Assembly (NCBI RefSeq): GCF_023701485.1
Contig: NZ_JAMQBK010000081.1
Coordinates: 62,001-126,000, forward strand
From: Aporhodopirellula aestuarii
Lineage (GTDB): Bacteria > Planctomycetota > Planctomycetia > Pirellulales > Pirellulaceae
Length of the DNA: 64,000 nucleotides
Direction: 5' to 3'
The position numbers were made by a program, and so were the translations under genes. This document shows positions 1 through 39,996 of the stretch, one piece after another. The notes under the pieces are model-generated. The model was not told the DNA's origin. It ran no database searches and was given only the letters and a program-made list of their open reading frames with translations. Positions within the stretch are counted from its first letter, which is position 1; each line of letters opens with the position of its first letter.

Positions 1-3000
1 TTCGTTGTAGTCCGTCGGCGGCGTGTAGTAGATGTTGTCAAAGTACCGCAGCGTTGTGCCGTTGACGGTCTCCTCTGCAATCGAGAATCGGAAGATTCCG
101 CCAGCATCGCTGACCAAACAAGCTTCATTCGGGCCACATGGATCCAGCGTTCCGATCGACGCCGGATCTGCCGATACCAACGCGGTATTGGTTTGCAGAT
201 TCAACGTACCGCCGGCCACGCTAAATTCGATGATACGTAGACCCGCGATCTGCTCGGCTTCGTTGAATGGAGCTCCCAGTCGCGGATCGAAATCACCAGG
301 GGCCGCGGGCAGTTCACCCGCGACGGCTTGGCTGAGAACTTGGATCGAAACCCGAGCCCGGTCAGCCGGCAACCCAAATGCTCCGATCTCCGCTGTTGCA
401 CCGAATCCGATGGAACGGAGTTGTTCTTGCAATGCGATGGCGACTTCATCGGCCGTATTTGCGGTCGTGAACGCAACGGCAACATCCGCACCCGTGGAAG
501 GTATTCCCGAGGTGTTGAACTCGACAACCGATTCATCGCCACCGGCATCGCGGATGCGAATCCGGTGACCATCCATCAACTGTGAACCGTCAGGCACGAC
601 GATATTCGTTCCGTTGATTTCTATGCTACTGGCCGCACGGTCGAGAGTGATTGACTGAGCATCGCTCAGTTGAACGCTTCCCGATTGTAAATTCGCACCA
701 ACACCGAGCCCCTGCAGCGCGGTCGCAAGTTCCGCGAGTACGGTACTGAGCGAACCGATCGGGTCGTATGCGATCGCGATCGTACTGCCCGCAGCTGGAA
801 TACCATTGACGTTAAATTCGATCACGAAAGCTTCTGCGTTGTCGTTGGTGATCGTGACCGTTTCGCCATCAATCATCTGAGCGAGAGGAGGCAGGATCAG
901 ATTCGTACCGTCGAACTGAATCGCCGACGCCGGATCGTTGATCACGACAGAAGTAACGTCATTGACCGTCACGTCCCAGACCACGAATGTTACCGGTGTG
1001 GCAGAGACCGCTGAGGCGTTCGGATCCGTCGCATCGTTGAGTGCAGCCGTCAACCGAGCGGTCAAATCAGCAACGTTGTCCGTCGACACATATGGAATGA
1101 AGACGTAAGACGAATCGCTAGCTGAACCGGTTCCGAACTCAACGGTGGTGGTTCCACCCGTGGAGTTCTCGATCAAAAGCAATTCGCCGTTTTGCAACAT
1201 CCCGCCGCTTGGCAAGACGACGTCACTGCCGATCACGCGAATGGCCGACGTGCCGGACTGGGCGGCAATCGACGCCGCACCATTGACCCGCACGCGGAAC
1301 ACCGTTTGAGCCGTTGCGGCGGCATCACCGCCAAACCCTTCGGAACGCATTGTGGACGAGAGAGCTTCGGCGATCTGCTGCGACGAATCCGCACTAGTGA
1401 TTGCAATCGGAATCACCCCGCTGGCAACACTTCCCGTCGTTGTGAATTCGAAGACATGGTCCACTCCGGCGGCGTCGCGGACCACGACGCGTTCACCATC
1501 AGCGAGGTCAGCTCCAGATGGGATCGTAACGACCTGCGAAGGTCCATCGACGTCGAGAGATGTCGGGCGAACCACTTCGTCGACCAAATTGGCATCGTTG
1601 AATGCAACTTGGTTACCGGTTGCTGTTCCGCCGAACCCGATCGCCCGCAAGGCTTGTTCGAGCCTCGTGGCGATATCCGTTGCCACGTCACCGGCCGTGT
1701 AACGCACGACCCGGTCAATGCCCAGGGACGCAACACCGGAGGTATTGAACTCGACCGCAACACGCTGACCGTTGACTGCCGTCAAGATCAAGACTTCTCC
1801 ATTGATCAAATCATCGGCATCCGGCAATGTGACGCCGAAGTTCGACACCTGAATTTGCGAAGATGCCGTCGGTGAACCGCTAAGCACTTCTGCTGCAGTG
1901 ATGGTTAACGGGGTGTCCTCGGCGGTTCGATGCAGTCGATCGTAGGCAACCGGAGCGTCGTTCACGGGCGCGACAAAGATCGTCGAAGTGATTGTTGACG
2001 TTCGTCCGTTGACCACGCGTGTTCCGCGATCATTAACATCAAACACATCGGTGACATCGGTGCCTTCGTCGATACCACTGTCCATCACGGTGTACGTGAA
2101 AGTGATTTCGCCGTAGACGTCATCCGCAGGTGTGAATGTGATCATGCCCGTGGACGGATCCAGCGAAATGGAACCACGGCTGAGCGTTTCGGGGCTGGCA
2201 TTGTCCATCCCCACCGCGACAACTCGAATGCTGGCATCGTTGCCGATTAGCGGGTCGGTTTCGTCCAACGCACCGGCAGGTCCCGTCGCATCGTTGTCGA
2301 GCAAGTAAGAGCTTGGGAAAACCAATACCGTGTCTTCGGTCGGGGTTGGTCGCGTGTTGGCATTCGGGAAGAAGCTCAGGTAGCGACTATTTGCAGCTCC
2401 CGTCGCGTCGGTCAAGCCGACGCAGTCGGCGGCCAATTCAGGGGCATCGTTCCGCGGGGTGACGCGAATCGTCGCCGTCGCTGTCGCTGCGGTCGCCGTG
2501 ACGGGTTTCCGCAAGAATTGATTTCGTTGACCACCACTGACGAAATACGGTGATGCACTGAGATCGTCGGCACCCAAGTTGAGTCCAGCGAGATTATCAC
2601 TGAGTTCCGTCGGCAACAATGAAATGCCATCGTCCATCAACGTAAACGTGAACTCATCGAGCAACAACGCATTGAGAGCGCCGACGTCACTGTTGAAGTC
2701 ATCCGCCGGTGTGTAGAGCACTCGCGTGATCCACTGAGGATTGGCAACGCTATTGAACTCCGCGACCAACGTACCACCACGACTCGTCGTGATCGTGTCG
2801 ACGGCTCCGCCAGCGGTGATCGTACCGTTGACCGTTGCGATCGAACGGATCAGGATGTTTTGGTTCGATTCATTCTGTGGAGTCGTCGTTTGGTTAGGAT
2901 CGAAGTCCGGGATCGCCGACGAAACCAAATCTGCCGCATCGATGATCAACGTCGGATCAGGTCCGTCGCTGGTAGGTTCAAACGTCACAAACGTTTCGTT

Positions 3001-6000
3001 GCTCGCTCCGGGATCGTCATTGTCTGGGAGGACGTTGATCGTCACCGTTTCGTACTGGACGTTGTCCGTATTGACTCCCGACGCGTTCTGTTGCGTGGAC
3101 AAGCGATATCGGAAGGTGTCCACACCATAGAAGTCTTTGGCAGGCGTGTAGGTGAACGCTCCGTTCAGATCATCTCCCGCTGCCAAGTCAACCATTATCT
3201 GGCCACCTTGCGGGGTGCGATAAACGAGCATCGTATCAGGGAACGTAGCTCCAGATTCATCAACAAGCAGTCGCGGCAGGTCGAGGAAATAACGAACCGG
3301 CAGAATCTGATTGCCCAGATTGTCGTTCGTCAGCAACGTCTTCCGGTTGATCTCCAATGCCGGATTGGACGCGCTCAAAGTAGCATCCACACGCAACGGG
3401 GTGTCCTCGATTGCGATGAATTGATCTCCGACGCCAGATGGCAACGGAATTTCAACGCGTCGGACGCTGACGAGGTAATCCTCGACTTCGCCACCGATGG
3501 CGACACCGGTTGGACTAGTATTGCCGGAATTGCTTAAACGGACACGCATCCAGGTATCGATGTCCGCCACGTCGCTAGGCGTCACAATACTCAGCGTGTT
3601 AAGACCATCGACAACTGGCTGATTGAACAGCACCTGTTCGGTGGTCCCAACATCAAAGACACCGTTGCCATTGAAGTCGACCCAAGCATCGATCAATCCA
3701 CCGCCGGTAACGAACACTTCCACGTTGGTACCAACGGGATCAGCCGGATTGAGGAATCCGAATACTTGACTCGACTGCGAAGCATCGAAGGTTTTTCCAT
3801 TATCCGCGTATCGTCCGAAGAAGTACGCCGGCGGATTGGATCCACCCTGATTGAACGTAATCACGGAAACTCCGTCTTCATCGTCGATCGCGGTCAAATT
3901 GACCTTCGCGGAGTTAGCGGAATCGATTTCCGACAGGATACTGCCACCAAACTCGTCGAGCCCAGACTCGATCGCATTCAACAAGGCTTCGGCGACCTGT
4001 TCGGTCGTGAACGAAGTCTGAATCAGAACCGGAACGCTGCCGGGTCGTGGGTTGGACGCCGGATCAACGAACTCATAGGTCCGCGTTCGGCTAGACGTGC
4101 GAAGCACCAACAGTTGCCCCGGAATGGGCACCGCCGAAAACGCAATCGATAGCGACGAGGGGTCAGAATTATCGACGGTGAAAGTTGCCGAAGACAGAAC
4201 CGATTGGGTCGCAAATGCAAACTCACGTGGTCGTGCGCCACCGACCGAAACCGAATTCAACTCGATCTGGTCTGGTTCCGCCGGATCGATCGAGGCGGTG
4301 AGGTCGGCCGCAGGACCGGTGACGTTCAACTCGATGGCGGCCAGCAAGGACGCGGCCACATCGTTGACACCATCGCCGGTTGCAATCTCAACCGCGAAAC
4401 CAGGACCACTCGGGGTCGATCCCGCGTTGACAAATTCAAATTGATAAGACGTCGAACTGGAGAAACTACCAGGATTTGCCGGATCAGGTGTGCGAACGGT
4501 CAATGTCATCACATCGCCGATGCGTGGCATCGCGGTAACGGTGATCCGTCCGAATGTAGGCGTGACGGCCTCCGCGGCAATCGACGTCGCACCGACCGTC
4601 AACAACATGTCGTCGGACACGCCGATGCCGGAACCCACAGGTTGGCCATCGGCTTCGGTGTCAACATATCGTCCCAAACGGCTTGACGAACTGCCGGTCA
4701 CGGCATGCCGTGCACCGTTGCCAGGAACATAGCCTGGATCGGTCGTATTCAACCCAGGCGTCGGGCTTTGTAGGAACGTGCCGTATTCTTGCGGTGCATC
4801 GCCGAAGTCGAATTGGACATCCGGCATGATGATCGTGAAGCGAGTTTCGTTGTTCGGTCGAGTCGGATTGACCGGATTTCCAGCCAAGTCGGAGATCGCC
4901 GAAATCGTTTCTGCGGTCGTTTCCACCGCGCCGACGCCACCCCGCGTGACAACGTTTTGGGTTCCAGCCAACAGCAACACGCCACCGCCTGGTGAGAACA
5001 CCTCGACACCGATCCCGGCTTCGCTGATCGCTTGTTGTACCTTCGTCGCCACCGACACGGCGGGGAACGAATCGCTAGGCGTGAATTCGACAGGAATCGC
5101 CCCACCACTGACGCCACCGACAACCAGGGCATCGCCGACCACCGCAGCCCCGGGAACGATATCAATCGTTGTGAACTCGCTGTTCTGTCCCGATCCGGTC
5201 TCGCCGAGAGTGATCACGGCACCGGTGCGTTGAACATTCAATTCGTTTTCAAACGCGAGATCCACGGCAGCTTCGAGTGCCTGAGCGATCGCAGTCGAAT
5301 CAGCAATTGGATTCACCACGACGGTGATGTTCGCCGAAGTGAGTTGTGGGTCGTTGGTGAACAAGAACGTTTCCGCCTTGCTGCCGACGGTAACCGTGAC
5401 AGTCGTTCCATCAATGGTGGCCCCGGTCTGTGTATCCGGTACCGTCACACTCAGCGAACGGGTAACACCCGGTGTGCCGGTGAGCGACATTTGCGAGTTC
5501 AGCAGATCGATCACGTCCCCTTCGAGACCGCCAACGGAGACCAAGCCGTCCCCGATCGCAACCGCACTGCTCAAATCGATATTCGAATTTCGAAGTGCAG
5601 CCGCAATTGCCAGTGCGATCTGGTCAGGCGTGTCCGTGCGGCTGAATTCGATTCGGCGCCGCGATGCCGTTTGGTCGGCAGGATCGAACGAGTCGTTGGA
5701 GTCGAACTCGAACGTGATCGCCATGTCGTCGCGGGTGTACGTGAACTGTGCACCGTCAACGATCGAATCCACCGTGCCCGTCTTGATCAAACCTGAGGAA
5801 ATGTTGGACATGTTGATCACGTGACCCGGCAACGTGGTCGTCGGCGGAACCGTTGTTGATTGAACCGCTGGCAAGGTCCCCAACTGTATCGAATCGTTTC
5901 CGACCGCCGCCGGAGCAATACCCAACAGGCTGGCATAGTTGGTCGCCGTTGGCGAACTATTGGAGAACTGCGTCGGATCGAGAACACGCAAGATCGCGTC

Positions 6001-20190: not shown

Positions 20191-20245
20191 GGTTTGACCG
20201 AAGCCTTGGAAGAAAAAATCGGTGGGGTAATAGCAGACGGAACTC

Positions 20246-20275
20246 GGACGGCGAAGGAATTCCCTTCAACCGTCC
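20246..20275 (-). terminator. Imperfect hairpin between the two giant genes
   Basis: The two nested arms GGACGG/CCGTCC and GAAGG/CCTTC enclose a 5-nt loop; the arms are separated by one unpaired base on one side and two on the other. It lies 22 nt past the stop of the upstream giant gene on the minus strand. No T-run follows at once; a TTTTTT stretch lies about 30 nt further on. It could end or attenuate transcription of gene B before gene A, or stabilise mRNA ends. Confidence 0.35.
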
Positions 20276-20296
20276 CTGGACGATTAGTAGACCAGT

Positions 20297-29200: not shown

Positions 29201-32200
29201 CAATTCCACCTTATAGAGGTCGACATCGTTGGCATCCTCCACTCCGGCAAGAGCGGCAGGGAATTCTTGGGTTGGGAACTCGAGGCTGAGGAATAATTGA
29301 TCACTGGCGTCGATCGTCTGCCCACCGGTCAGGTTAACCAACAGTTGCGTATCGGTGAAGGAGACATCCACACCCACGGTTGACGCGTCGCTGACGTCGA
29401 CACCTCGAAGGTTGCTGAAATCCCCTTCGAAAACGTATCCGTTGAAACTGCCGTCGGCGACCACACCGGAACCGGTGTAATTCACCGAGATCGACGCATT
29501 ATTGACGTCGATGTTGGCGTTAACCGTCGTGGTCGGTGCACCGTCGGTCGCGAAGTTAGCAATGTTGCCAAACTCGACGCCGACACCGACCACGGCACTG
29601 CGTGCATCGGTCACGTTGGAACTGTCAAACACGGTTCGGAAGGTGATCGTTTGATCGGTCAGACCCTGTGGAATGTTGTAACCGATCGCCGCGTTTTGGA
29701 TGTAAGGACCTGCGTGATCACGTCCGACATAGGTCGTCGTCGCATCAGCAAGAACGTCGTTGTTGTCCAGTTTCGCGTCGTCAGGGAACAACGACTGCGT
29801 CCCATCGGAACCGTAGACGGTGTTGTTAACCACGCGAGCAAACGGCTGTGCCGCTTCGGCAACCGGTGCCGGACCGACCGAGAAATCAGTGATACCGCCG
29901 CCACTGCTTCCATAGGCGGTGGTGAAGTAAATATTACTAACACCTTGCAAGTAGACCGCGGCGTTCGGGAATGATTCCGGGTTAGCGGCAAATTGTTCTT
30001 CGAAACCGCTACGCTGCACCATCGAAGGGCCGAGATACGCAGTAACCACTTCGGCCATATCATTGGTCACAAGGATACTGCCTTGGATGGCCTGTTCAAT
30101 TGCGAGCATCAACTCGAACGACGAATACGGATAAACCGTTCCGGGTGCGTTGTTATAAGCTGCTGCACTGGATTGATGCCGATAGTAGATCGGCACGTGA
30201 CCGTCAATGAATCCATTTCCACCCGCGGTTCCGCTACCGCCCGCGACGACGGGTGCCCCACCAATGTCTTCAAATTCGAAGACGACCCGCGTTCCGGCGG
30301 CGTCAATCGCCATCGTGTATCCGTCATTGACGTTCAATGACAAAGCATCGATGACAAACGGTCGCGTTTCGCCTTCGACCTTAATGCCCGACATCCGAGC
30401 TTGATCGATCGTGTTGTTACGAATCACCACGCCCGACATCAACCCGCCGTCGACGGAGTTGTTCAGCGTCGGCAGGTTCCGAGCGACACCGGCAGCAGGA
30501 TTACCGACTGGGGGCAGTTGTAAGAATGGATGCGGTGAGTCGGTGCTCTGAGCGATACCGAATAACTCATTGAAGAAATCGACTTCCGACGGATCGCCGC
30601 GATAGTATTCCATGTCGGTACCACGATCGCCGGCTTCCGAATAGATACCGATGGCGTGGACATCGCTGATCACATTGTTCTCAATGATGACCTGGCCCTG
30701 AGTCCGCGTGTAATTGACGTCACCTGATCCGTTGTGCAAGACCGCAGGCATGAGGATGCGTCGGTTGCCTTGCGCGGTGAGTTCAAAGTCCAGCGTATCA
30801 GTGACTTGCGGTGCGTCGCTGTACGACGCCAACTCCGTGAACGAACCATTGACGGCACCAAACAGGTTCAACCGATTTCCGGTCATCGTTTCATCATCGA
30901 GTCCGGACGCGGAGGCAGCTTCCACATCCAACCGATTGGTCGCGTTGATCGCCGTGCGAATCCGCATTGCGAGTTCCGCTGGTGTGTCCGCGGTGCTAAA
31001 TATCAACCGTTGGTTCGTGAACCGGGTCGACCCGTTGTTGTCGAACTCGAAGACTTGCGTCGTCTTGCCATCATTGATTTCGAAGATATCGCCGTCTTGG
31101 ACCTGGGACCCGGCGGGCACGACGAGTGTGATTTCTTGAGCGTGACGGTCGTTGGTATCGAACGATCGCGTCAAACCTTGTGCGTTACCGGTAGGCGTGG
31201 TGAACGACGTCGCACGACGCATTTCGAGTTGGTACTCGCCGGTCGGCCCTTCGGCTTCACCGACGAACGTGGTGGCTCCCGGCGTGGAGTTGAACACCGT
31301 CTCGCCACGTTCGGCAAAACCAACGATAAAGTCGTCCAGATACAAACCTTCGGCTTCGTCAACGACGACCCCATCGCTCTCATATTCGAACTCAAAACGA
31401 ATATCAGTGTGGCCGGCAAAATCGCTCAGCGAGATTACCTTCTGACGCCATTGCGAATCACTGATAAAATCAGGATCCGGGTCGGCGGTCGGATCTAACG
31501 TCAAGTTCGGCTGGGTCTCATCGAACGTGATGCCAGCGGGGTTTTCCGCACTAGTGATCTTCAGCGTGAGCGAATCGATCGGGTTGCCGAGACCATCGAG
31601 CGGGCTATCCCAGAGATAGTTGAAGTAGAACCGCGGCAGGTCTTCGGCGGCGTATCCGACTAGGTCGAACGCGTTGCTGAGCAATTGACCGCGAGTTTCG
31701 ACGTTGCGATCGAAGTGGATGCTTTCGTTGGCGCCGTCGCCGATAACTTGATCCGCCGCTGAAACGTGCATCACGTAACGCCCCGTTGCCGCCTCGCCGG
31801 TGCGCGGGAACGTCAGCGTACCGTTCGGGGCGGTAACGATTTGAGTGTTCGCCTCCAAAATGCCGATGAAGTACACACCCTGGTCAAGGATGCCATCGAA
31901 GAAAGGGTCACTGCTGATCGAGAAGAACGTATCACCCGCACTGCCCGTTTGTCCTTCCGTCGTCAACGAGTTAAACACACGTCCGGGAGGATTGAGCAGA
32001 ACACGCGAAGCATCCAGGATGACCAGGTCGACATCCACGCTGCCGAGAGTCGGATCACCAAAAATTGATTGGAAGGGGTTTTCACCTTCGTCGACATCGA
32101 TGATCACGCGAGTGTTGTTTTCCGTGATCGTCAATTGATAGAAGTCGGCGGAATCGCCGTTCATCGACGCTTCGATCGAAACGTGAGGAATCGTCTGTGC

Positions 32201-35200
32201 GGTGAAGTCGTCGGTACCACCAATTTGCGGGTTGCTCGAAATCGACCAATCCAATGTATTCAGATCCAACGCACCGGCAGGCCCCGCGGTGCCTTCGGTG
32301 ATTCTCTGAATTCGCGTGTACGGCGACTCAACGTTTGTATCATCAGTCGTGTTGAACTCACCGCGGAATTCGCTGTAGAAAGTCTGGTTGCGACCGGTCA
32401 GCCCGAAATTCGTCTTGTCAAAGTTGTCGTTGACGCCGTGGCCGATGTCGTTGGCACGCTCAGTGGTCGTGGTGAACCCACCGCCGATGATCGCAGCATC
32501 GGAGAACAATTCGTCTTCACGCGGGCCACCAAAGACACTGTCGCCCGTCGCGGCACTATCAATCCGGTCTTCGAAGATCCGTTGGATCGAGTTAATCGGC
32601 TCCCGACGAACCGCCACATCGCTGAGTTGCTCAGGCAATCTTTCTCCCGCGGTAATGGCGACGTAGTACGCACCTTCGGGAAGCGAAACAGGACCGATCA
32701 GTGGATCGCTTGCCGAGATCGAACCACGGTCGAGGCGTTCGGCGAAATTGCCGTTCTCACCGAATGGGCTCGATTGATCTTCGGCCACGTTGCTATCGGC
32801 ACCGAACAATACCAATTGCGGGAGTGCAGGCCCGAACTCGCCGTCAGGATCATAGAACACACTGATATTGGTATCCGGACGTGTCAGCCCCGAGGCGTAG
32901 TCGACGTCAAAAATCGTCGACATGTAATTGGTATTCAAACCTTCGGTGCCGACCAGGGCCGCGATGTCGACTTGGTAGAAGTCCACATCGAGCCCATCGC
33001 TGATTGATCCGGCAACGCTGATGACGGGACGTTTACCGTCGAGCAGGTTTCCGACGTTCTGCGGTTGTTGCGCCGGTGCACGATTATCGTTTTGCAGAGA
33101 AACGGATTCGAGTACGTCGTTGGACGAGGCGATTCCGAACGGTGAATCATCGCCCACGACGGATTCGTTCTCACCGGCTTCACCCATCAAGGGTGACTCA
33201 CCCGGTAATCCGCGGACGTGAATCCCGTTGTTAGCCCAGCGGATATCGGTGTAGCGAATGACGCTGCCGGGATACTCTTGCGCTTCTTGCAAGCGAACTT
33301 GGACCAGGTAGGTGCCGTGACTGCCGCCGGCATTCGGATCGTTCGGGTTAGTCGATGCACTGCGAACACGGAAATAGTACGTACTGCGACTGTCGTTTCC
33401 GGTCGAATCGCCAGGCAATACGACTCGGAAACCGGCGTCGCGTGAGTTGATGCTGCCGATATCGAGGTAGTCACCGAACACATTCTTTTCGGTGTAAGTG
33501 TCGGCACGCGATTGCAACGGACTCACCAAACCGGCTACCGAAGGATCTGAGATGACCACGTCTCCGGCAATCGAATTGTCGCTACGTGCGAGCAACACGC
33601 CCTCGGCGTTGAGCAATTCCACAACGGTATCGAGGCCAAAGGACGTGCTGTCGATATCGAACCAAACCTCGGAACCGGCGCTGCCATCGAAGCTGTACGT
33701 ATCGACGTCGGTCGGACCCGATAGGTAACCGCTGACCTCGAAACCGAGCCGACGATTTTCATCACCGAGATTCAAATCGGCCGCGAGATCACCCAAGAAC
33801 TGAGCCTGATTCACGTCGCCGTTTCGTCCCGGAGCCACGTCGGTGGTGAGTTCTTCTTCCAGAATGAAATCGACGTTACGGTCGTTGCTGTATTGGTCCA
33901 GCAAAACGCTGCGCCAATCATTCGTCTCGGGACGTGATCCGTAGGAATCTCCGTTGGTGTCCGTGAAATGCGTTCCGTCGATCGCGAGACCCGCACCCAC
34001 CGTATCGTCTTTGAAACTCGTCAGAACAACCGGAGCTCCCGGCAAACCGACGATGTGAATGGTGCCGCCGAGCCGTTGGTCGCTATCGCTCGTTTCTCCC
34101 GTCGCGGTAAACCCGGTACCGAGCGTGGCACTGTTCGGCGTGCCCGCACCACTGAGTTTGACCACCAAAGATTCGTTGGCGCGGCTTTGCAATCGCAGGC
34201 CGCCGGAGCTTTGGATATTGCCAACAGTCACACTCTTATTGAGCACGTGAACGATGTCGGTGTCGTCCCAAATCGACTCCACGAGAAGCTCGCCACCGCG
34301 GATGACCAAGCCGCTGATTTGCTTGTCTTCATCATCATCGGCGGGAACGACTTCGAATCGGTTCAAGCGAACCAACGGACCGTGGTTGTCGTCGAATTCG
34401 GAGAACGTATCCACACTGCCCGTTTGACGACCGGTGTCTCGCAACAGATCGGCGACCATCGAGTCGACATCGATACCGATCGCGGCACCCCGGTTGTCCT
34501 TGAATTCGTTCGCGACAATCACCGGTTGGCTACCGCGAACAAAGATCACCGAAGGATCCACCGCGAGTCGACCACCACGGCCGGGACGACCCGAACCATC
34601 CTGTCCGTCTTCGTTGAACTCGAATCGCGTGTTCGTGATGCGACCATCGGCCTGTTGCAGTTCGAGTGGGGCAAACCCGCGACTCTCACCACCGGTCACC
34701 AAACTGATACCACCGGCGTATGAAACGACGGAGTGGTCCAAACTGACGTAAGCATTCGCGCCGGCGTAGATACCCGACCAATCACCTCGCTCGGCGATTT
34801 CATTTCCGTTCAGGGTGTTGGCATCATTGTTGGTATCAAACGTCCCGCCGGTTCCATAGCGATCGTCGAGCGAACTGGTGAAGATCACCGGTTGCGACAG
34901 CGTGCCTTCGGCGAGCAACTGGGTACCGTGTCCGAGTTCGATTCGAGCGCCCTGAAGCTTAACCACCATTCCCGGATCAATGACCAATGACGCATCGAGT
35001 CGACCACGTCGGCCCACGCGATTGAGATCCAACAGACCTTCGGATGACGCGCCACCATCGGTGTACGTCGAACTGAGACCATCGAGGCTGGCGATCAAGT
35101 GATAACCACCACTGATCAGGGCTCCGGTGGCGTCGAATTCGGCTCGATACAAGCGACGTGAAACGTAGTCGGTGCCATCAGGGATTCGTGGCAATCCTGC

Positions 35201-38200
35201 CAATTGAATGCTTGCTCCGGCGAGCGTTTCTCCGGTCGCGGCCGACAGACGCAAGGCGGCGGAGACGTCCGTCGCCGCCGACTCGAACCCGTTTCCGTCG
35301 ACGAACGTCATCAGGTACTCAACCGTCGACGTTCCGTTGGGGATCGCACCGCCCGTCAAAATCTGAGCAGAAGCTTGTGCCAAAGAAGGTCGGATTCCGT
35401 CTTGGATTGCACCACCGGGATCACCCGCGATCACGAGATTCTCAGCGATGAAGTGCACGACGCTGGTGTCATCGAATCGTGCCGATGACATGAGTTGCGT
35501 TGGGGCCGAATTCGGGGTCACAACGGTGCGGATGAACAGCCCGTTGAGACTGTTATTTGTTAGCACGTTGTTGTGGATGTCCGGTCCGACCCGGCTGTAA
35601 TCAGGCGTGAAGCTGCCTGCTTGCTGGAATGCGGGCGTACTAAACGTGGTCTCTTGGAAACTGTCCGGAGCCGCACTCATCGCGGCGTCCGCACTCCGAG
35701 TGATCTCGTTGAAAGAAATGTTCGGACGCAGATTGATCAACTGAATCGGGTTAACCAATTGTTGCACCGAATCGACCCGAATATCGCTACTCCCGCCGTA
35801 ACGGATTTCGGCATGATTGACCGTATGCAAGAAGATGCCTTCATCTTCCAAATCGAGTCGGCCCAATGCTTGATCGATATCGCGACGGAAAACGATCCCG
35901 CCCCAGTCACCGGGTTTGGGCGCGATGGAAGTCCCGGCACCGGCAGCGTCGGCGGCGCGATCGCGGGTGCTGGTGAAAATGACGCTTCCATCGTCATAGC
36001 CGAGACCGGCGTCGTTGACTTCGCCAATCAGGGAGGCGCCGGTGTCGGTAAAGCTTACCAAACGCGGCGTTCCGAGAACTTGCAACGCACCGCCGCTGCG
36101 GTCGATCTGGGTGCTGCTGCTTCCGACGCTGATGCGGGATGAACGCAGTTTAAAAATCGCGCCGGCATCGATCATGGTCGTGACCCCGGCGGGGATTTCC
36201 ATGTCGCGGCCGTCTTCGAGCGTCCGACCACCGACTTCGCTCAATCCAAATTCATAAGCGAAGTTATCCGCCTCGGTCACAATGTTTTGATCCGAGCCAC
36301 CGTTGCCCACGATCCGGACGATGTCGCCCCGAAGCGTTGAGTCGAAGGCGTTGACGACGGCGGGATTGTTGATGTTATTGAACGGCAAATCGATACTACC
36401 GTCCGCATTGGTCGCGGCGAGCTTGTCAACAAAGATCATTCGTCCGAACGATTCAACGCCGCGGAAACTATTGCTGAAGCTCACCGAACGCTCACCATCG
36501 AGCGTGATGCTGTCCGCATTCACCGTTGCGACAACACCCGTCGCGTCTTGCCGGCCATTGATCGCCGTCGCCAACAATTCGGCAAGGTTCTCAGGAGGCG
36601 AATCGTTTCCAGGCGTGCTGCTGTAACGGACAACCACGTTACCCGGTCGTGCCGAACCACCGCCAAACGGCAGGAACTCATACGTGCGGGTGTCGCCGTT
36701 GGCACCCGTGATCGTCATCGTCTGGCCCGGCGTGATCGATTCACCACCGAGTGTGAACTGCATCGTGCGTAGTTCCGGACGGGTCTGGAACCAGAAATTG
36801 TTCGCTCCGCGAGGCACGCCATCACCATCACCGTCGATCGGTGTTCCTGGAACTCCTGGACGTGTTCCGTCCCGGTCTCGAATCACATCGACCTCATCGA
36901 CCTGCGGCTCGAACTTGATCCGCAATTCATAATCGCCCTGCGTCAATCCACCAAAGCCGCTGTCCTTCACCATCGGGTCATAGGTATCGTTGCCACTGGC
37001 GGCAACACCGATGTAATAGACGCCCTCACCGAGCGACGCGGTCAGGAACGAATCTTCGCTGAAGTAATCGTCATTACGGCTGAGTTGATGGAGACCACCG
37101 CCGGACAAAATGATCGGCGTTGTGCGGAGGTTCAGACCGCTGATGTCGGTCGTTATCGAACCCTTCACGAGCTCGAGTTGGAAGAGGCTGCTGGCAAACG
37201 CGTCATTTTCGATGGCCGCGATCAGTTGGCCGACTTCGACAGCGTCGACAAACCGGCCCCGACGTGGCATATCGATCAGAATCGCATTGTTGACGAATCC
37301 GCCGGCACCATCATCAAGCCTTAGCACGCGGACTTGATCGTCGCCGGCATCACGGTCGCTCTCAATGAATTCGATACGCGCACCGTTGCCGCCTGTGCCG
37401 ACTTGCGTGGCTTCGACACGGAGCTGCAAGGAAGGCCCGATCTTCAAATCGGTCGACGCACTGGCGCGAACCTCTTCGAATAGCGTGACGGTTGTATCGA
37501 GGGCGCTGGAGTCCGACAGCCGCTCGGCAAACGTCTCGACACTGAGTTGACCGATCCGATTGGCATCGTCCAAATCGATTACGAATCGATACAGGTCGAC
37601 GTCGACGCTATCCGGCCGGTGTACGTATTGTCCGTGCAAGACATCGACGTTCGATGGGAAAACAGGTTCCCAATCTGGAAGGGAGAAATCGTCGAGATTA
37701 TCGGGTAGATAGACCAAACTACCTTCCGTCGTTGGCACATCCGCGGGCAGCGTGATCGGATCAATTAGATCATTGAGGAAGCCCCGGAATTCAGGATGTT
37801 CTTCAGCAAACCGTTGATAATCCGGCGAATTCGGATCGGTCGTTGGTGCTGTGATTGCAGGCCCAAGGACACCGTCGGTCGGTCGGCGAAGCAACGCCTC
37901 ATCATTAAACGCATTGAGCGCCATCAGCACTCGCGGAGCCTGATCGGGAGCGGCTAAAAGTCCCAGCAACAGCCCCACACCGGCTGCCGCCTTGCGGGTG
38001 AAGTCCTCGCCGTAATCGAATCCAAAGTTCGCTTGGTTGCTGAACACGATCGACGCGTTGGAGCTGCCCGCGGTCGCGTTGTCATTGATCGCCGGGTCGA
38101 CTCGCACCGACGCTTGCAATTGCGGAACCGCGGTAAAACGCAGATCGTCGGGCAGCGAAGCGGCCGTCAACAGATCGCTAGTCTCACCCAAAGCAAACGT

Positions 38201-39865
38201 GATCCCTTGGTCCGCGGTCTCAGTGAACTGCACACCGATTTTGTTGCTCCACAACTGCAGCACTTCACGGATCCGCAGCTTCTGCGTCGGAGTGATCTGA
38301 TTGAGCGAAGAGGTCGTTCCGTTCTGGAAATAGACGCCTTTGAAATTGTACGGGATCTCGGTGATACCAGACTGCAAGTCGGCACCGAACGCGTCATTGA
38401 TATGTTCGATCAACAACCGGTGCCCCGGATCGTCATCCCCACCGGGCAACTCAATATTGACCTGCTGTGGCGAGATCGACTCACGGATCACAAGGCTCGT
38501 TAGCGTATCGGCATCAAACGTTCCGATGTCCAATGACGTGCTGAGCGTGTCTCCGAGTCCGACCAGCGTGATCGGATCACCGCCGACCAAACGCTGGGGC
38601 AACTGCGTCGATAAGAAAGAACTGTTGACCGAGATCGAGATCAGACTGCTGATAATCGCATCGCCCTCGACCGCAGCGACCAAGTCACTAACCAAGGGAG
38701 TGCTGCCGCCGTAGTTGACGACGATCACACCCGACGTGTCTTGCGAAACCGACAAACCGGCGGTCCCGGTGTTCACAAAGCGGACCTGTTGGCCCGACGC
38801 GTTTTCGCCGACTTGACGCGAGACAAATTCAAACGACCCACTGTTCACGCCGAGCGAAACGGTTGCCGTCGGCGCCGTCAGCATTTCCGATGGTTCAACG
38901 ATCAGGTCTAACTTCGAATCGACCGCCGTTCCGATCCGCAACCGGAAAGTGCCGCCGCCGACGGGAACTCCAGGCAGGTTGTTGATGTCGGATTCGAAAA
39001 TCAAGCGAGCCGTGTGCGTGGTCGCGTCGTAGATCACTTCCTCAGGAAGATAGAACTCGTCGTCGGTCGTCCGCACCGAATCTTGCGTCAGCAATAACTG
39101 GTAGAAGCGTGGGTTCTCCGCTGAGCGTTCGGTCGGATTCCCCGCCGCGTCGTCCTCGACGAACAAAGGATCTTCGTTGAAATAGACAACGATCTCGTCA
39201 CGATTTTGAGTCAACGACCCGTCCGCGTTTCGGATCACCGGCTGCGGCACGACCGCTTCGATCAGTGCACCGAGGTCGAGCCGGAAATTGACCGTCTCGA
39301 CGCGTTCGCCGACCACCGAGGGCTGAATCAGCTCACCCTGGACGTTACGCAAGCCAACAATCGGAACAGGCGTCGCGTTCGGGTCGTCATAGCCGTAGAT
39401 GGTGATTCGATAATTGTCATCGGGCAGCGAATCGGCAAATCGCACGACGACTTCATTCTCGTTCGGATCACCGAGCGACACGAGCCCCGGTGTGATTCGG
39501 ACATCGTCGGTCGTCCCAAACAAGCCGTCACGACCGCTCCGGGTGAGCTGGATCGAATCGAGCGTGTTGGCGTCAAGCTGCTGATCTTGATCAAACCGGA
39601 ACGTCAAAACCCGTGGGGCAATTTGCCGAACCGCCCCGTTGTCGAGCAACTCGCCCTCATTGGGTTGGACCCCGATCAGTTCGGGACCGGCGAGCAATTG
39701 CCGGGCCTCAAGCGTTTCGAGCAAATGCCGACGTCGTTGTTGACGTGTGACGCTCGAACGCCGGCCCTCTCGATTTGAGCGGCGGGCGCGCGTGGGTTGA
39801 TCGGACGACGCTTGAGGGGTCGTGGAAACAGGAGAAGACGACGAATTTCGCTGACGCGAGGTCAT
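20297..39865 (-). CDS. Giant planctomycete surface protein B with C-terminal dockerin
   Basis: A complete 6522-aa product. Residues 49-60 are LETLEARQLLAG, the planctomycete extracellular signature, after an Arg/Ser-rich leader. Domains in order: Ig-like region; metzincin-like fold without zinc ligands (about residues 510-640); pre-peptidase-C-like domain; right-handed beta-helix repeats (residues about 1250-2250 and 3050-4120) with interspersed jelly-roll and further pre-peptidase-C-like segments; an array of 'FEFD' modules (about 4270-5390); a GDAPD/GEVED region ending in SGEVEDYLVRLVGG (near residue 5570); cadherin-like and Ig-like domains with 'YTPPQDYNG' strands (5600-6310); a type I dockerin pair (about 6320-6395); and a Ser/Ala-rich tail. 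The role is expected to be extracellular adhesion or scaffolding. Its neighbour 106 bp downstream is a co-linear paralogue. No enzyme active site was recognised. Confidence 0.92.
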   Translation of the reverse strand: MTSRQRNSSSSPVSTTPQASSDQPTRARRSNREGRRSSVTRQQRRRHLLETLEARQLLAGPELIGVQPNEGELLDNGAVRQIAPRVLTFRFDQDQQLDANTLDSIQLTRSGRDGLFGTTDDVRITPGLVSLGDPNENEVVVRFADSLPDDNYRITIYGYDDPNATPVPIVGLRNVQGELIQPSVVGERVETVNFRLDLGALIEAVVPQPVIRNADGSLTQNRDEIVVYFNEDPLFVEDDAAGNPTERSAENPRFYQLLLTQDSVRTTDDEFYLPEEVIYDATTHTARLIFESDINNLPGVPVGGGTFRLRIGTAVDSKLDLIVEPSEMLTAPTATVSLGVNSGSFEFVSRQVGENASGQQVRFVNTGTAGLSVSQDTSGVIVVNYGGSTPLVSDLVAAVEGDAIISSLISISVNSSFLSTQLPQRLVGGDPITLVGLGDTLSTSLDIGTFDADTLTSLVIRESISPQQVNIELPGGDDDPGHRLLIEHINDAFGADLQSGITEIPYNFKGVYFQNGTTSSLNQITPTQKLRIREVLQLWSNKIGVQFTETADQGITFALGETSDLLTAASLPDDLRFTAVPQLQASVRVDPAINDNATAGSSNASIVFSNQANFGFDYGEDFTRKAAAGVGLLLGLLAAPDQAPRVLMALNAFNDEALLRRPTDGVLGPAITAPTTDPNSPDYQRFAEEHPEFRGFLNDLIDPITLPADVPTTEGSLVYLPDNLDDFSLPDWEPVFPSNVDVLHGQYVHRPDSVDVDLYRFVIDLDDANRIGQLSVETFAERLSDSSALDTTVTLFEEVRASASTDLKIGPSLQLRVEATQVGTGGNGARIEFIESDRDAGDDQVRVLRLDDGAGGFVNNAILIDMPRRGRFVDAVEVGQLIAAIENDAFASSLFQLELVKGSITTDISGLNLRTTPIILSGGGLHQLSRNDDYFSEDSFLTASLGEGVYYIGVAASGNDTYDPMVKDSGFGGLTQGDYELRIKFEPQVDEVDVIRDRDGTRPGVPGTPIDGDGDGVPRGANNFWFQTRPELRTMQFTLGGESITPGQTMTITGANGDTRTYEFLPFGGGSARPGNVVVRYSSTPGNDSPPENLAELLATAINGRQDATGVVATVNADSITLDGERSVSFSNSFRGVESFGRMIFVDKLAATNADGSIDLPFNNINNPAVVNAFDSTLRGDIVRIVGNGGSDQNIVTEADNFAYEFGLSEVGGRTLEDGRDMEIPAGVTTMIDAGAIFKLRSSRISVGSSSTQIDRSGGALQVLGTPRLVSFTDTGASLIGEVNDAGLGYDDGSVIFTSTRDRAADAAGAGTSIAPKPGDWGGIVFRRDIDQALGRLDLEDEGIFLHTVNHAEIRYGGSSDIRVDSVQQLVNPIQLINLRPNISFNEITRSADAAMSAAPDSFQETTFSTPAFQQAGSFTPDYSRVGPDIHNNVLTNNSLNGLFIRTVVTPNSAPTQLMSSARFDDTSVVHFIAENLVIAGDPGGAIQDGIRPSLAQASAQILTGGAIPNGTSTVEYLMTFVDGNGFESAATDVSAALRLSAATGETLAGASIQLAGLPRIPDGTDYVSRRLYRAEFDATGALISGGYHLIASLDGLSSTYTDGGASSEGLLDLNRVGRRGRLDASLVIDPGMVVKLQGARIELGHGTQLLAEGTLSQPVIFTSSLDDRYGTGGTFDTNNDANTLNGNEIAERGDWSGIYAGANAYVSLDHSVVSYAGGISLVTGGESRGFAPLELQQADGRITNTRFEFNEDGQDGSGRPGRGGRLAVDPSVIFVRGSQPVIVANEFKDNRGAAIGIDVDSMVADLLRDTGRQTGSVDTFSEFDDNHGPLVRLNRFEVVPADDDEDKQISGLVIRGGELLVESIWDDTDIVHVLNKSVTVGNIQSSGGLRLQSRANESLVVKLSGAGTPNSATLGTGFTATGETSDSDQRLGGTIHIVGLPGAPVVLTSFKDDTVGAGLAIDGTHFTDTNGDSYGSRPETNDWRSVLLDQYSNDRNVDFILEEELTTDVAPGRNGDVNQAQFLGDLAADLNLGDENRRLGFEVSGYLSGPTDVDTYSFDGSAGSEVWFDIDSTSFGLDTVVELLNAEGVLLARSDNSIAGDVVISDPSVAGLVSPLQSRADTYTEKNVFGDYLDIGSINSRDAGFRVVLPGDSTGNDSRSTYYFRVRSASTNPNDPNAGGSHGTYLVQVRLQEAQEYPGSVIRYTDIRWANNGIHVRGLPGESPLMGEAGENESVVGDDSPFGIASSNDVLESVSLQNDNRAPAQQPQNVGNLLDGKRPVISVAGSISDGLDVDFYQVDIAALVGTEGLNTNYMSTIFDVDYASGLTRPDTNISVFYDPDGEFGPALPQLVLFGADSNVAEDQSSPFGENGNFAERLDRGSISASDPLIGPVSLPEGAYYVAITAGERLPEQLSDVAVRREPINSIQRIFEDRIDSAATGDSVFGGPREDELFSDAAIIGGGFTTTTERANDIGHGVNDNFDKTNFGLTGRNQTFYSEFRGEFNTTDDTNVESPYTRIQRITEGTAGPAGALDLNTLDWSISSNPQIGGTDDFTAQTIPHVSIEASMNGDSADFYQLTITENNTRVIIDVDEGENPFQSIFGDPTLGSVDVDLVILDASRVLLNPPGRVFNSLTTEGQTGSAGDTFFSISSDPFFDGILDQGVYFIGILEANTQIVTAPNGTLTFPRTGEAATGRYVMHVSAADQVIGDGANESIHFDRNVETRGQLLSNAFDLVGYAAEDLPRFYFNYLWDSPLDGLGNPIDSLTLKITSAENPAGITFDETQPNLTLDPTADPDPDFISDSQWRQKVISLSDFAGHTDIRFEFEYESDGVVVDEAEGLYLDDFIVGFAERGETVFNSTPGATTFVGEAEGPTGEYQLEMRRATSFTTPTGNAQGLTRSFDTNDRHAQEITLVVPAGSQVQDGDIFEINDGKTTQVFEFDNNGSTRFTNQRLIFSTADTPAELAMRIRTAINATNRLDVEAASASGLDDETMTGNRLNLFGAVNGSFTELASYSDAPQVTDTLDFELTAQGNRRILMPAVLHNGSGDVNYTRTQGQVIIENNVISDVHAIGIYSEAGDRGTDMEYYRGDPSEVDFFNELFGIAQSTDSPHPFLQLPPVGNPAAGVARNLPTLNNSVDGGLMSGVVIRNNTIDQARMSGIKVEGETRPFVIDALSLNVNDGYTMAIDAAGTRVVFEFEDIGGAPVVAGGSGTAGGNGFIDGHVPIYYRHQSSAAAYNNAPGTVYPYSSFELMLAIEQAIQGSILVTNDMAEVVTAYLGPSMVQRSGFEEQFAANPESFPNAAVYLQGVSNIYFTTAYGSSGGGITDFSVGPAPVAEAAQPFARVVNNTVYGSDGTQSLFPDDAKLDNNDVLADATTTYVGRDHAGPYIQNAAIGYNIPQGLTDQTITFRTVFDSSNVTDARSAVVGVGVEFGNIANFATDGAPTTTVNANIDVNNASISVNYTGSGVVADGSFNGYVFEGDFSNLRGVDVSDASTVGVDVSFTDTQLLVNLTGGQTIDASDQLFLSLEFPTQEFPAALAGVEDANDVDLYKVELIVGDRLIVDIDTIENGPDTIIRIFDEFGESQVLNFGAPNETKVADNGAAPDYLDPRSTAFAGAGRAGTVTDNLNGRDPFVDFTALKTGTYFIGVSSVGNAGYDPNSLSGRTGGTTTGDYEIGIEVYTPRQFVMSLDDGNEGQSRRGGTVGSDLVGTTFTVTQIADFAGNWPNFPVSGGTPTTVGNQLTFEFTNSVTGIVLGNGNYNVPLIANYNVPEIMDAIASAVTGLQDPISGADIPALPNNENGNGPGGRSGPIARGRATALGGQSGDNLGIVNLSDPSRRPGQTRTLFPIQSQGNDTDFPLGFGHDRVENNSSTLSPNNTLTDGFASTELYVLFENIAEIELSPQAMAAGLKLSTNDFRPNSDNNNRVEFAENADQLIAESGIWVTGGASPTLLNNVLSNLHQSILVDETNFFGFGKRVRVAGNDFIKPQEVVVNGNVFQHDESRNSEIRFDVTWPVDPTGPFDIVDTSLSTDDVVGATNVTLQSGDFNFFIDPTGVLLVDSQGNNFLPAPGSRVIDSATSSLNERSSFSSVKTAVGLPISNVLAPNRDVNGVLRADNPNFVTSGGSGQSIFKDRGSSELADFIGPIAIALNPRDNDAAGLDRDTSVSYIQRGVGVLGDFRIQLVDTGDGSNPFTGIGIDDSTLKVAEIPGLRREGANLTVFENDELLEEGIDYTFRYDETSNTITLIPLAGVWRDDRSYRIALNNRDRTVLIAPDPSEVTDGDQIRITDSDGGTVVFEFDSGYQLFLPETPTLIVPTVGTEVGGLSDGDIFLISDGINDAVVFEFDNDGVLLPGSRRVSLPTESLVGQQVGLRVGNDNFLFQFVEENGSATGGAIAVTFNPADPVEGSIFELYRVIQQTLANNGINVVVDVADDDLTTLIITTATSGPAVSITSKPTSFSTGAAPSPSRGISLQLESLPAKETPTGRQERQEYLNLIAQSIQTAITQERRKTNETGDLPSNRAAAFDFEVKIDANRVVLGAPAGYVVDTSGTGLGQDARTLALQVPTVGTGINGIVDGDSFTVSNGNSEKVFEFTLDAQLDNSDATQIFLDTTLGNLTGGEIAELIRETVEEAGLGLTPTVDGETVYLDLPANGLVAASSGQLRVLGLSRPLLDGDIIRVAKAPEPPSTAIAINNAFPAGFEVGTIVAQIDSTVFTLELREGDLLPELYNFEFDTSDADPAEVTPGNFPIDVTETIADENGVLREYFVSRDELARRIAQAIQARGIDVSPVAQDEFIYLTVPAEKTARIISEFNGIGLTETATFEERVTFEFDLSTAENPNGDGVTPGNRAILYSLTDTSSELADKVTAALNPVDDAGNAITLIDGLLPGSSPVAPGQVAVNVSSDNPLTLSVTIDSSLEIRGEPGVSGSSTVEVFGPLLLSMPVLGGNSITNGGIFVIADDDGNDIVFQFGIGGFVPPAQAVVGANVVNYSTADDPDVLATKFAAAIRAAATGLTATVVNGTQVSLGRTDQDRVSNAGLPGVSGTPAIDIVRGIVSDGEILRIRQGDVSVSFEFDSVDNGGGVEPGNVQVAFQPTSTPGDIAEALAAAIRNNSGGLRFTPGEDGTVYPIAELDENGIPTGGVILNDLPGTQVDISDAPTLNVTGVPGGAIPIAISPLFSPEAVKQVMLRQLNSVNVVGELPTTTLVAEDRGGNTLFVENASIISGPVSNYYLPAIKDVVGNPLQPNRDDRTTQFTINLSDIALDFGDAPDPVGLVAGRYPTRLADNGARHIIGVGPVLGTSVDAEVDALSVRTADGDDFTISVSGGGSLFVPRLEDGVVKIDINPNNLFDVTRFDGETFTIDTGAAIATFEFDTDGIFDEDNYNIWVPGYTGNRILTAADSALLTRTAIATGIEEAIALSPLNPASTRTVEGATPGSVTFEVSGDDEDGVTFTSTANPEGLFNASLTTQVSVTVTGAGILEGWIDFNADGDWDDPGELVISPDLAFDGTVNPAIFGEGTTTHTFPVTIPATTTKLLAGQSANTYARFRVSTNGTGSPVGLALSGEVEDYLVRLVGGQPPAIGNPSPQYTVREGDFLQAGDDTGTDAFTNNNGLLVGVTTATPGGVQIYADDIGVRQLFDESGQFAGTLEVQRNGTFTFDADDDFSGQVTFSVLATDVVPSAPQNQLVSPTPIVATITVTPVNDRPTLQDGVVEDDVVTTTTINEDNVVSQADQTSLGPVVFTASQLIDPFYSAGPGTEPDEQDLFFLSAGTVTTPFRTTQGGSLTISSNGRTILYTPPQDYNGLTADTFTYTVADRLKSTLPGTIVSQTADVSGRVEITINAINDNPRVNNETYQTTERVSNSDPILIIPINGPTVINGQSVAGILDNDTAGPLDETQPPQNQTISLKAGQFTSIENGAIVQSRRTEGGGGRIALVGNNLEYTPRLNFSGIDRFTYIVVDSLGAESTATAFINVGGVNNQPEFFGVRGQEGQTTLEFDERKAADETATFDLTSWFVDADDDSLTFPQPTVENTDLFTATTNGSQLTLNFKPFAFGTTTLFVRATDSLSPDVVQEITVTVLGSDDPPVVAGSLQPLQILEDGVGQANLRRPTVDGDGLFFDPDNDVLTYRVRRLGSISNPTAAQIAAHPLVQSIQFLGDTLQITPKPDQSGSVQIEIEASDGTFVNSHSFDFVVLATEDAPRGNVTPSGVASPDAYSVPVGGTLRITDPSLGLLRNDFDPDPGSSIRIAPGSLTQPVGGTGAVDLLGREDGAFSFTTTKTGNSIPVAGQTDTFTYRLIDNTGRLSGPITVNITFNQSSYQNPINKFDVSADGFITAVDALRILNLMNARGADTSAFSVSELTSSPPDYYDVNGDGFISSVDVLQVIEELNRRDANGNNGSSEPLATQSASSVTTVTSNVAGGIESSLASTQAFASGSTANLGSANTVLRTAEEEGPIDASASLDKLLTFGMDLQSGGQLKAEEVADTLASNLSSSQASESETTGQANDSALLDLFSDSFETD
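20690..20905 (-). other. Type I dockerin pair at the C-terminus of protein B
   Basis: Two calcium-loop plus helix halves are visible: KFDVSADGFITAVDALRILN and YYDVNGDGFISSVDVLQVIE. Both keep the D-x-N/S-x-D-G-x-x-x-x-x-D calcium ligand spacing typical of type I dockerins, with a 30-aa linker between them. Dockerins bind cohesin domains; a cohesin-like protein is encoded at 57883-59193. Confidence 0.85.
23700..27060 (-). repeat. 'FEFD' module array of protein B
   Basis: About 1100 residues with at least eight units. Loops 'DGD(Q/I/S)F.I.DG' lead into core strands VVFEFDSGY, VVFEFDNDG, FLFQFVEENG, KVFEFTLD, VTFEFDLST, IVFQFGIGG, VSFEFDSVDN and ATFEFDTDG, then a helix such as PGDIAEALAAAIRNN and a closing strand. 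Isolated copies also occur near 31030-31110 (QVFEFDNNG) and 30250-30320 (VVFEFEDIG). The last unit is inserted between the GDAPD and GEVED parts. Limits were set by eye. Confidence 0.65.
37950..38340 (-). other. Degenerate metzincin (M10-like) region in protein B
   Basis: The helix ITPTQKLRIREVLQLWSN and strand GVQFTE match the entry to serralysin/matrixin-like domains. 'SNASIVFSNQ' then stands where the strand before the zinc helix belongs. The zinc helix position reads AAAGVGLLLGLLAA in place of HExGHxLGLxH: the Gly and Leu framework is kept, but zinc ligands and the catalytic Glu are absent. Peptidase activity is therefore not expected. The fold assignment is by pattern only. Confidence 0.6.
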
Positions 39866-39996
39866 AGACCGAACCTTCTAGGCAGAGCGGACGGCAAGTC
39901 GGTTGTTACAGGCGAAAATGCATGAAAAAACCGCAATACCATTGCACTTGATGTGAATCTCGGAGCTTCGCACGACCTCAGTTCGATCTCACCAGA

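Follow-up and report, generated by a model that had tools for sequence, protein, structure and literature searches.

Giant genes are an old puzzle of the planctomycetes, and most are annotated by the name of a repeat or as hypothetical. In the available portions of the papers that describe them, their products are regarded as probable surface or adhesion proteins (PMC5177795, PMC7717043), and PMC5177795 cites the giant surface-protein genes of Reva and Tummler (2008); a giant gene of R. baltica, RB11769, is mentioned in PMC2754498. Table 2 of the Stieleria varia report (PMC7717043) contains three consecutive locus tags for proteins of 6271, 7630, and 6858 aa, the last of which is named "Matrixin". 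A peptidase complex of cohesin and dockerin proteins, the "planctosome", was proposed as a hypothesis for freshwater planctomycetes (PMC6461901). As far as the accessible text of that paper goes, the complex is non-cellulosomal, its reprolysin-like, metzincin-type peptidase is taken as active, and its anchoring protein has 2,210 aa. Animals have inactive ADAM-type metzincins, extracellular proteins of several domains that retain a metzincin domain devoid of catalysis (PMC11266112).

We analyzed a window of 64,000 nucleotides from Aporhodopirellula aestuarii (positions 62001-126000 of contig C146 in genome G000, a 9.07 Mb draft assembly of 165 contigs). Two giant genes were found in it, with A as the upstream member and B following after 106 bp:

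39865..20297, minus strand: gene A, complete, a giant protein of 6522 aa with a surface motif (open reading frame list; frames of orthologues open)
20190..1, minus strand: gene B, the N-terminal 6730 of 8177 aa (open reading frame list and adjoining sequence)
C146:57657-82190 of G000: whole gene B, the remainder lying downstream, beyond the window edge

The initial annotation had described two co-linear giant genes of surface type, related by tandem duplication, and the ordered BLASTP matches, the intact frames, and the 106 bp gap bear this out. Its size for A was correct, whereas B, given as at least 6730 codons, in fact has 8177 aa and ends at C146:57657 in the adjoining sequence. A near-continuous chain of BLASTP matches joined A 28-2465 to B 21-2223 at 36-50% identity. 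It began with A 28-313/B 21-337 (38%), 474-561/426-514 (37%), and 728-797/628-702 (50%), continued with 914-1030/702-813 (37%) and 1123-1610/798-1262 (36%), and ended in the strongest match, A 1516-2465/B 1293-2223 (39%, E = 2e-145). Beyond about residue 2450 the matches were interrupted and weaker; the main ones kept their order (A 2830-3045/B 3766-3993, 4053-4361/4417-4719, 4799-5324/4667-5199, and 5448-5823/5463-5860), and three weaker off-diagonal matches were also present. The diagonal was near-continuous for the first ~2450 residues and was broken thereafter. The short passages quoted in the initial annotation were located at corresponding places of both translations, with IVH in B against VVH in A. 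Dot-plots of both proteins and genes had been suggested; the protein diagonal appeared over the same ~2450 residues, but the DNA diagonal was absent, since blastn returned scattered short pieces alone (best, 51 nt at 84%, E = 3e-8; longest, 150 nt at 65%, E = 0.33). No frameshift was detected, both frames being open here and giant frames being open in the 13 other genomes read (G001 with B alone, and G022 with its first gene truncated by the contig start). Taken at the level of sequence, A and B evidently descend from an old duplication, not a recent one.

Residues 1-1723 of A, used as a query, gave matches in 29 of 40 genomes (the window genome plus 39 relatives). In 13 of the 14 loci read, the window's own included, two or three giant co-directional members of the family followed one another in open frames. 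The pair was carried by 12 of the 13 genomes of the genus (in G007 and G009 as judged from match coordinates alone), and G001 had a B-type gene only. Outside the genus, pairs occurred in G023 and G022, and three consecutive giants were found in G018. The view that a tandem duplication of such genes is unusual is thus not supported. In a family-wide search, the N-terminus of B matched at least 49 of 60 genomes, and co-directional neighbours with estimated ends and starts within 2.5 kb were present in at least 12 of the 25 genomes scored; the true figure is probably higher, given how fragmented many of the assemblies are. The closest named relatives among the best 80 of 298 loci were Rhodopirellula rubra, R. 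sallentina, and R. solitaria. A misassembly or a pair of decayed pseudogenes is hardly credible as an explanation of these genes: the assembly is a draft, but the open-frame arrays recurred in 13 of 14 loci, including those of the single-contig G002, G004, G018, and G023, and dN/dS (given below) was well under 1.

Within the genus, the best BLASTP segments showed identities to the window's copies of ~49-87% for A-type and ~52-74% for B-type genes, compared with ~36-50% between A and B; the duplication therefore appears to predate the genus. A-type and B-type genes formed separate supported groups, each including other genera, in a core-region tree built by a quick method from part of the core (102 rows, SH-aLRT support only). 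A search for fused or lost copies had also been suggested, and G001, with B and without A, provided such a case. There, other genes lie between the conserved upstream 485-aa gene and B, replacing A, a VWA gene, and a 206-aa gene, and the GGDEF gene downstream of B is retained; no remnant of A upstream of B was detected by tblastn. G001 evidently lost or replaced A. Markers flanking the locus could be detected in G000, G001, G003, and G012 only, with one further partial sulfatase match in G023.

Both proteins have the same layout, in which the extracellular motif is followed by a pseudo-metzincin domain, the core, modules, a GEVED domain, cadherin/Big-type repeats, a dockerin, and a C-terminal tail. 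The main features outside the pseudo-metzincin and dockerin domains were as follows:

39686..39739, minus strand: A, LExRxLLA planctomycete extracellular motif (PF07595; genome search, above cut-off)
20032..20085 (C146:82032-82085), minus strand: B, LExRxLLA planctomycete extracellular motif (PF07595; genome search, above cut-off)
32471..36499, minus strand: A, conserved core (aa 1123-2465), where A matches B best (BLASTP)
13522..17799, minus strand: B, conserved core, aa 798-2223, matching A (BLASTP)
9391..11616, minus strand: B, hypervariable array of ~85-aa modules, aa 2859-3600 (module HMM)
373..1833, minus strand: B, five consecutive modules at ~100-aa spacing, aa 6120-6606 (module HMM)
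23582..27055, minus strand: A, stretch rich in modules, aa 4271-5428 (module HMM)
23150..23422, minus strand: A, GEVED domain (Pfam)
3469..3690, minus strand: B, GEVED domain (Pfam)

When protein fragments were scanned, PF07595 scored 25.1 bits in A and 21.9 bits in B, both under the 25.5 cut-off. GEVED, Cadherin_5, Big_9, and the type I dockerin exceeded the Pfam cut-offs in both proteins, as did Cadherin_4 in the C-terminal part of B; NCBIfam additionally reported tandem-95 repeats, and PPC and Beta_helix matches in the core of A were under the Pfam cut-offs. The C-terminal pattern was picked from the tails of the first genome and then tried on a second genome. A and B thus resemble the planctomycete giants of PMC5177795 and PMC7717043, which, in the portions available, are likewise very long, carry cadherin-like and calcium-binding domains, and are predicted to act in adhesion. 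The three Stieleria varia giants presumably belong to the same family as A and B. When a profile of the core region was compared with the PDB at a limit of E = 0.1, a single match was obtained: positions 329-423 of the 532 in the profile aligned with a virion-associated phage protein (E = 1.4e-7).

The ~85-aa module is unnamed, with the consensus DGetftitd...tvtfeF. A module HMM, trained iteratively on the A and B proteins themselves, detected 14 copies in A and 20 in B, some of them partial, and the module was present in 76 of the 80 named loci (best 80 of 298). The ten B-type pair genes of the genus had 16-22 copies, and B of G001 had 17. The module stretches gave no Pfam or NCBIfam matches at E 0.01-0.05, the module profile found no convincing relative among PDB sequences (best E = 0.85), and the module model (pLDDT 84) gave no significant fold match (best E = 0.09).

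Near the N-terminus of both proteins lies a domain that resembles a metalloprotease with a degenerate active site:

37919..38455, minus strand: A, pseudo-metzincin domain, aa 471-649 (alignment and family HMM)
37952..37984, minus strand: A, degenerate zinc motif AGVGLLLGLLA replacing HExxHxxGxxH (alignment and family HMM)
18403..18921, minus strand: B, pseudo-metzincin domain, aa 424-596, with an MMP-like fold in the model (family HMM and model)
18436..18468, minus strand: B, degenerate zinc motif RGIGSLLGIGN replacing HExxHxxGxxH (alignment and family HMM)

Alignment with intact relatives showed that all zinc ligands and the catalytic Glu are gone from both domains. HExxHxxxxxH was present in the aligned domain of three relatives (G022_2, G018_3, and the C96 paralogue), whose intact domains had Matrixin or Reprolysin matches in Pfam; A and B had no Pfam match at this domain. 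A family HMM was seeded with 27 intact copies, and its first round gave 106 aligned stretches. After iteration, the motif was readable in 107 of 110 proteins, and the domain was found in A and B. HExxHxxxxxH was kept in 27 of these 107 scored copies and missing from the other 80. At least four genes are represented twice among the 110 proteins, once from each of two sources, and the set is biased toward A-type copies because its 80 named loci were the top scorers against an alignment with A at its head. None of the scored A-type or B-type copies kept the motif, the maximum remnant being one His in G023_2.

In the PDB, a profile of 45 active and inactive copies matched MMPs, karilysin, and serralysin (best E = 1.8e-7). 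Residues 424-596 of B were modeled with AlphaFold2 at a pLDDT of 82, and all 50 of the 50 Foldseek matches listed for this model were MMPs or karilysin (best E = 8.9e-5, TM ~0.4-0.5); the comparison with MMP-11 gave a VIA Z of 11.1 and an rmsd of 3.5 over 125 residues. The alignment from which the model was built included the intact relatives, so the model leans to their fold. The predicted metzincin fold comes from the model for B and from sequence alone for A. The position of the Met-turn follows the zinc motif and falls at or past the end of the modeled residues. Both profile and fold relate the N-terminal domain to matrixins and serralysins (M10) and to the bacterial MMP karilysin; in contrast to these, A and B lack the zinc ligands and the Glu.

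The intact or lost state was mapped onto the core-region tree, which excludes the pseudo-metzincin domain (99 scored rows, 27 of them intact), and required at least 14 changes, seven of which were forced by starred branches. B-type copies belonged to a supported group that includes the intact G022_2, G018_3, L181, L203, and L208, whereas A-type copies belonged to another group without intact members. The losses of the zinc site in A and B therefore look independent, assuming that loss is never reversed.

Across 10 genomes, the domain of B had a mean pairwise identity of 79% with no gaps, the top level in the gene; the overlapping 250-aa window 501-750 likewise reached 79%, and the other 250-aa windows of B ranged from 38 to 75%. 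The domain of A, with 67% identity, was middling for a protein whose 250-aa windows ranged from 53 to 75%. The dN/dS of the domain was 0.007-0.037 (computable in 8 of 10 comparisons), compared with 0.041-0.101 for the whole genes, and that of the B domain was 0.007-0.021 (computable in three of five); these values are rough because dS, at 0.9-2.7, was near or past saturation, and it was undefined in two of the 10 domain comparisons. On these figures, the dead protease domain appears to be under strong purifying selection and not decaying. The conservation bears directly on a purely structural reading, in which the giants are envelope or fibre parts and the pseudo-metzincin is just a folded spacer. 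Their great length, repeat modules, and dockerins would suit such a role, as would the A domain, whose identity is no better than that of the rest of A. However, the B domain is among the best conserved parts of its protein, gapless and low in dN/dS, and we consider the structural reading rather unlikely.

We regard it as less probable still that the giants are secreted enzymes which, in the manner of the proposed planctosome, form an active complex that degrades polypeptides or polysaccharides (PMC6461901, as far as its accessible text describes it). The intact motif in a quarter or so of the scored family members (27/107), the weak beta-helix match in the core of A, the cohesin and dockerin proteins of the same genome, and the proposal of the freshwater complex itself speak for it. 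Against it, all scored A-type and B-type copies are without the motif, with one His at most. Moreover, Pfam and NCBIfam detected no glycoside hydrolase or lyase family in A or B at E 0.01-0.05, and a single match of B to an M4 thermolysin model (NCBIfam, E = 8e-4) was far below the cut-off and fell on the GEVED region. The planctosome and the present locus have in common non-cellulosomal cohesin and dockerin proteins and a metzincin-type component; the former has a peptidase taken as active, whereas A and B contain a dead domain within a dockerin-bearing giant.

The dockerins, which scored 42.6 bits in A and 43.3 bits in B (cut-off 22.9), were placed as follows:

20696..20890, minus strand: A, type I dockerin (Pfam)
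C146:58149-58229: B, type I dockerin, beyond the window (Pfam)

Genome G000 contained 28 dockerin matches and three cohesin matches; the latter fell in genes next to one another at C57, where a wider search gave two. These genes encode a protein of 2022 aa, with PF07595, 13 cadherin stretches, and a cohesin that was seen in the genome search and not in the protein scan; a 388-aa cohesin/SdrD_B protein with a weak PF07595 match; and a 200-aa cohesin protein with an LExRxLLA-like motif at its start. Cohesin (PF00963) matches were found in 12 of the 13 genus genomes (all but G001) and in 17 of the 40 relatives, and dockerin matches in 33 of the 40, with 20-47 per genus genome. G001, which has no A and no detectable cohesin, kept B and 29 dockerin matches. 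We infer that the giants dock onto cohesins of the C57 type; a PF00963 match was absent from 16 of the 33 dockerin genomes, including the giant-bearing G022 and G023, and docking onto cohesins may therefore not be general.

We think it somewhat better than an even bet that A and B arose by an ancient duplication, have been conserved together in Rhodopirellula and its relatives, and act as giant extracellular, dockerin-tethered adhesins or matrix proteins in which the dead protease serves as a binding module. Both giants would be exported via the planctomycete surface signal and fixed to the surface by the dockerin, possibly also by the C-terminal tail, on cohesin proteins encoded elsewhere in the genome. 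The cadherin, GEVED, and module stretches would extend each giant outward to form an adhesin or matrix protein. Close to the end distal to the dockerin, the pseudo-metzincin would bind a peptide, an inhibitor, or another giant as its partner without cutting it, and the module arrays would provide length and surface variation, with B as the variable member. The sequences themselves show a surface signal, a protease domain that is dead yet conserved, a dockerin, and the variability of B. Surface location, partner binding, docking, and adhesion are the roles we infer for them.

The initial annotation had suggested that recombination between A and B could generate surface variants. The two genes are adjacent, co-directional, and co-linear, as a recombination substrate would be, and they share more short words within than between genomes: 39 against 28 14-mers per A-B pair (~36 without an overlap in G011), 13.5 against 6.3 16-mers (~11), and 3.7 against 0.7 20-mers (~1.5). 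Common codon usage may account for this excess, which persists without the G011 overlap. However, the mean A-B bit score was equal within and across genomes (526 vs 521.7), the longest shared words were alike (16-23 nt in the same genome vs 14-29 nt across genomes), the A-type and B-type genes fell into separate clades, and almost no DNA similarity exists between A and B. The mutual exchange of sequence between A and B is thus very improbable. A 43-nt word shared by A and B in G011 was rejected as a case of exchange, as it corresponds to a physical overlap of two extended reading frames, and gene conversion between A and B was rejected as a main force, the bit scores and word lengths giving no clear sign of it.

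Recombination evidently does create variants, but among B alleles of different lineages. The B proteins of the window and of G003 shared 86% identity over residues 1-500 and 84% over residues 4500-8177, but only 61.5% over residues 750-4450, where the window's B was nearer to that of G008 (71.6%); no comparable drop in identity occurred in A. In segment trees made by a quick method (10 rows for B and 9 for A; B residues 2700-3750 left out for poor alignment), G000 grouped with G003 and G012 for B residues 1-500, B residues 4500-6700, and the whole of A (SH-aLRT 97, 100, and 100, respectively). For B residues 750-2700, G000 grouped instead with G008 and G006 (SH-aLRT 100), and G003/G012 with G010/G001 (96); for residues 3750-4450, G000 again grouped with G008/G006 (99). 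The G000-G008 identity was steady (0.716 in the middle of B, 0.711 after it, and 0.733 in A), whereas that of G003 and G008 was lower in the middle of B (0.628 vs 0.713); the replaced stretch therefore most likely sits in the G003/G012 lineage. The placement of G010 also differed, with G004/G011 for A and with G001 for B. The most variable 250-aa windows of either protein were those at B 3001-3500, within the module array, with 38-40% mean identity and 36-39% gaps across 10 genomes. The sources of variation are the number of ~85-aa modules in B and the allelic replacement of the B interior between species.

A wider proposal, which we offer tentatively and place a little short of an even chance, is that Pirellulaceae display non-catalytic binders of MMP fold on cohesin-docked giants, with many independent losses of catalysis that include both members of the pair, and that the pair forms two non-redundant arms of a single surface system, B being the variable arm with an interior traded between species. 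If true, this would give bacteria a parallel to the catalytically dead animal ADAMs, some of which act in adhesion; animal ADAMs differ from A and B in architecture and organism, and we claim no homology past the metzincin fold. One conserved pair among the giant genes now gains an ancestry, an anatomy, and a mode of variation. It also has a testable part, a dead protease of ~170 aa under strong selection inside proteins of 6500-8200 aa, in which one can study why evolution repeatedly retains a protease fold without catalysis. A cohesin/dockerin surface system may be connected with the giant genes, and this could be tested in a cultured marine bacterium. Giant planctomycete surface proteins are already known as a kind, because PMC5177795 and PMC7717043 describe such giants as likely surface or adhesion proteins; the text available from these two papers contains neither the adjacency and its conservation nor an inactive metzincin or a mosaic history. 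Neither this pair nor dead metzincins in planctomycetes were found among titles and abstract openings of the open-licence literature. Within that literature, the recurrent pseudo-MMP, the conserved pair, and the exchange of B segments appear to be new.

Possible expression signals were located around the gap between the genes and before both starts:

20246..20275, minus strand: intergenic stem-loop just past the stop of A (folding)
39867..39877, minus strand: leader AAGGTTCGGTC preceding the A start, with a similar one in B (leader comparison)
20196..20207, minus strand: leader AAGGCTTCGGTC before the start of B (leader comparison)

A consensus scan of positions 20000-20500 detected no sigma-70-type promoter or intrinsic terminator. 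The sequence AAGG(C)TTCGGTC was common to the leaders of A and B; a scan of 23 further PF07595 genes, covering the 24 bases ahead of each chosen start, did not find it. A stem-loop near the stop of A was present in all 10 of the A-B gaps folded (14 had been extracted), with a sequence that varied between groups. The z value of the gap fold was -1.6 or lower in 8 of the 10 (G010, +0.34; G002, -1.06); in G001, which lacks A, the region preceding B had a z of +1.99. It is possible that A and B form an operon whose transcript is partly terminated or processed between the two genes.

A short C-terminal pattern was found in proteins carrying a dockerin: a hydrophobic residue, D, any residue, two hydrophobic residues, any two residues and a further hydrophobic residue, located inside the last 30 residues. 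The pattern was picked on the tails of the A. aestuarii genome (G000) and then applied to the related genome G018 as a held-out genome. Tails belonging to a second dockerin match in one protein, or lying in a fetched flank without a stop, were excluded, which reduced the dockerin matches from 28 to 22 in G000 and from 25 to 19 in G018. The pattern was present in 7 of the 22 tails from G000 (loci L083-L110) and 7 of the 19 from G018 (loci L216-L240), compared with 9/276 C-termini of other proteins. A cohesin protein on contig C57, a putative docking partner, likewise ends in AVDEVFANSLF. The pattern is possibly a sorting signal. The cohesin locus comprises three adjoining surface-type genes, one of which is oriented away from the other two, and cohesin matches were detected in 12 of the 13 genomes of the genus.

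G000:C57:51135-59397, cohesin locus (L243), three adjoining surface-type genes
Window 20246-20275, stem-loop in the gap between the giant genes A and B
Window 59320-63822, additional 1500-aa protein of the surface type, combining DUF11 and SdrD_B domains with a PF07595 motif

When other A-B gaps were folded, a stem-loop was again present with a different sequence; it was weak ahead of B in G001, a genome without A. The placement of G010 (L059-L061) conflicted between the A tree and the B tree, suggesting that one of its giants, or a large part of it, may come from another lineage. The profile of the core region common to A and B (alignment A2, positions 329-423) matched PDB entry 8jov, a phage protein associated with the virion, at E 1.4e-7.

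G000 has additional giant open frames that match a dockerin or PF07595 model on C142, C96, C87, C99, and C110, with lengths of 5654, 4535, 4726, 5967, 6149, and 9102 codons; the PF07595 score of the 9102-codon frame was below the cut-off. The 4535-codon copy on C96 retains the zinc motif as HEIGHALDVFH.
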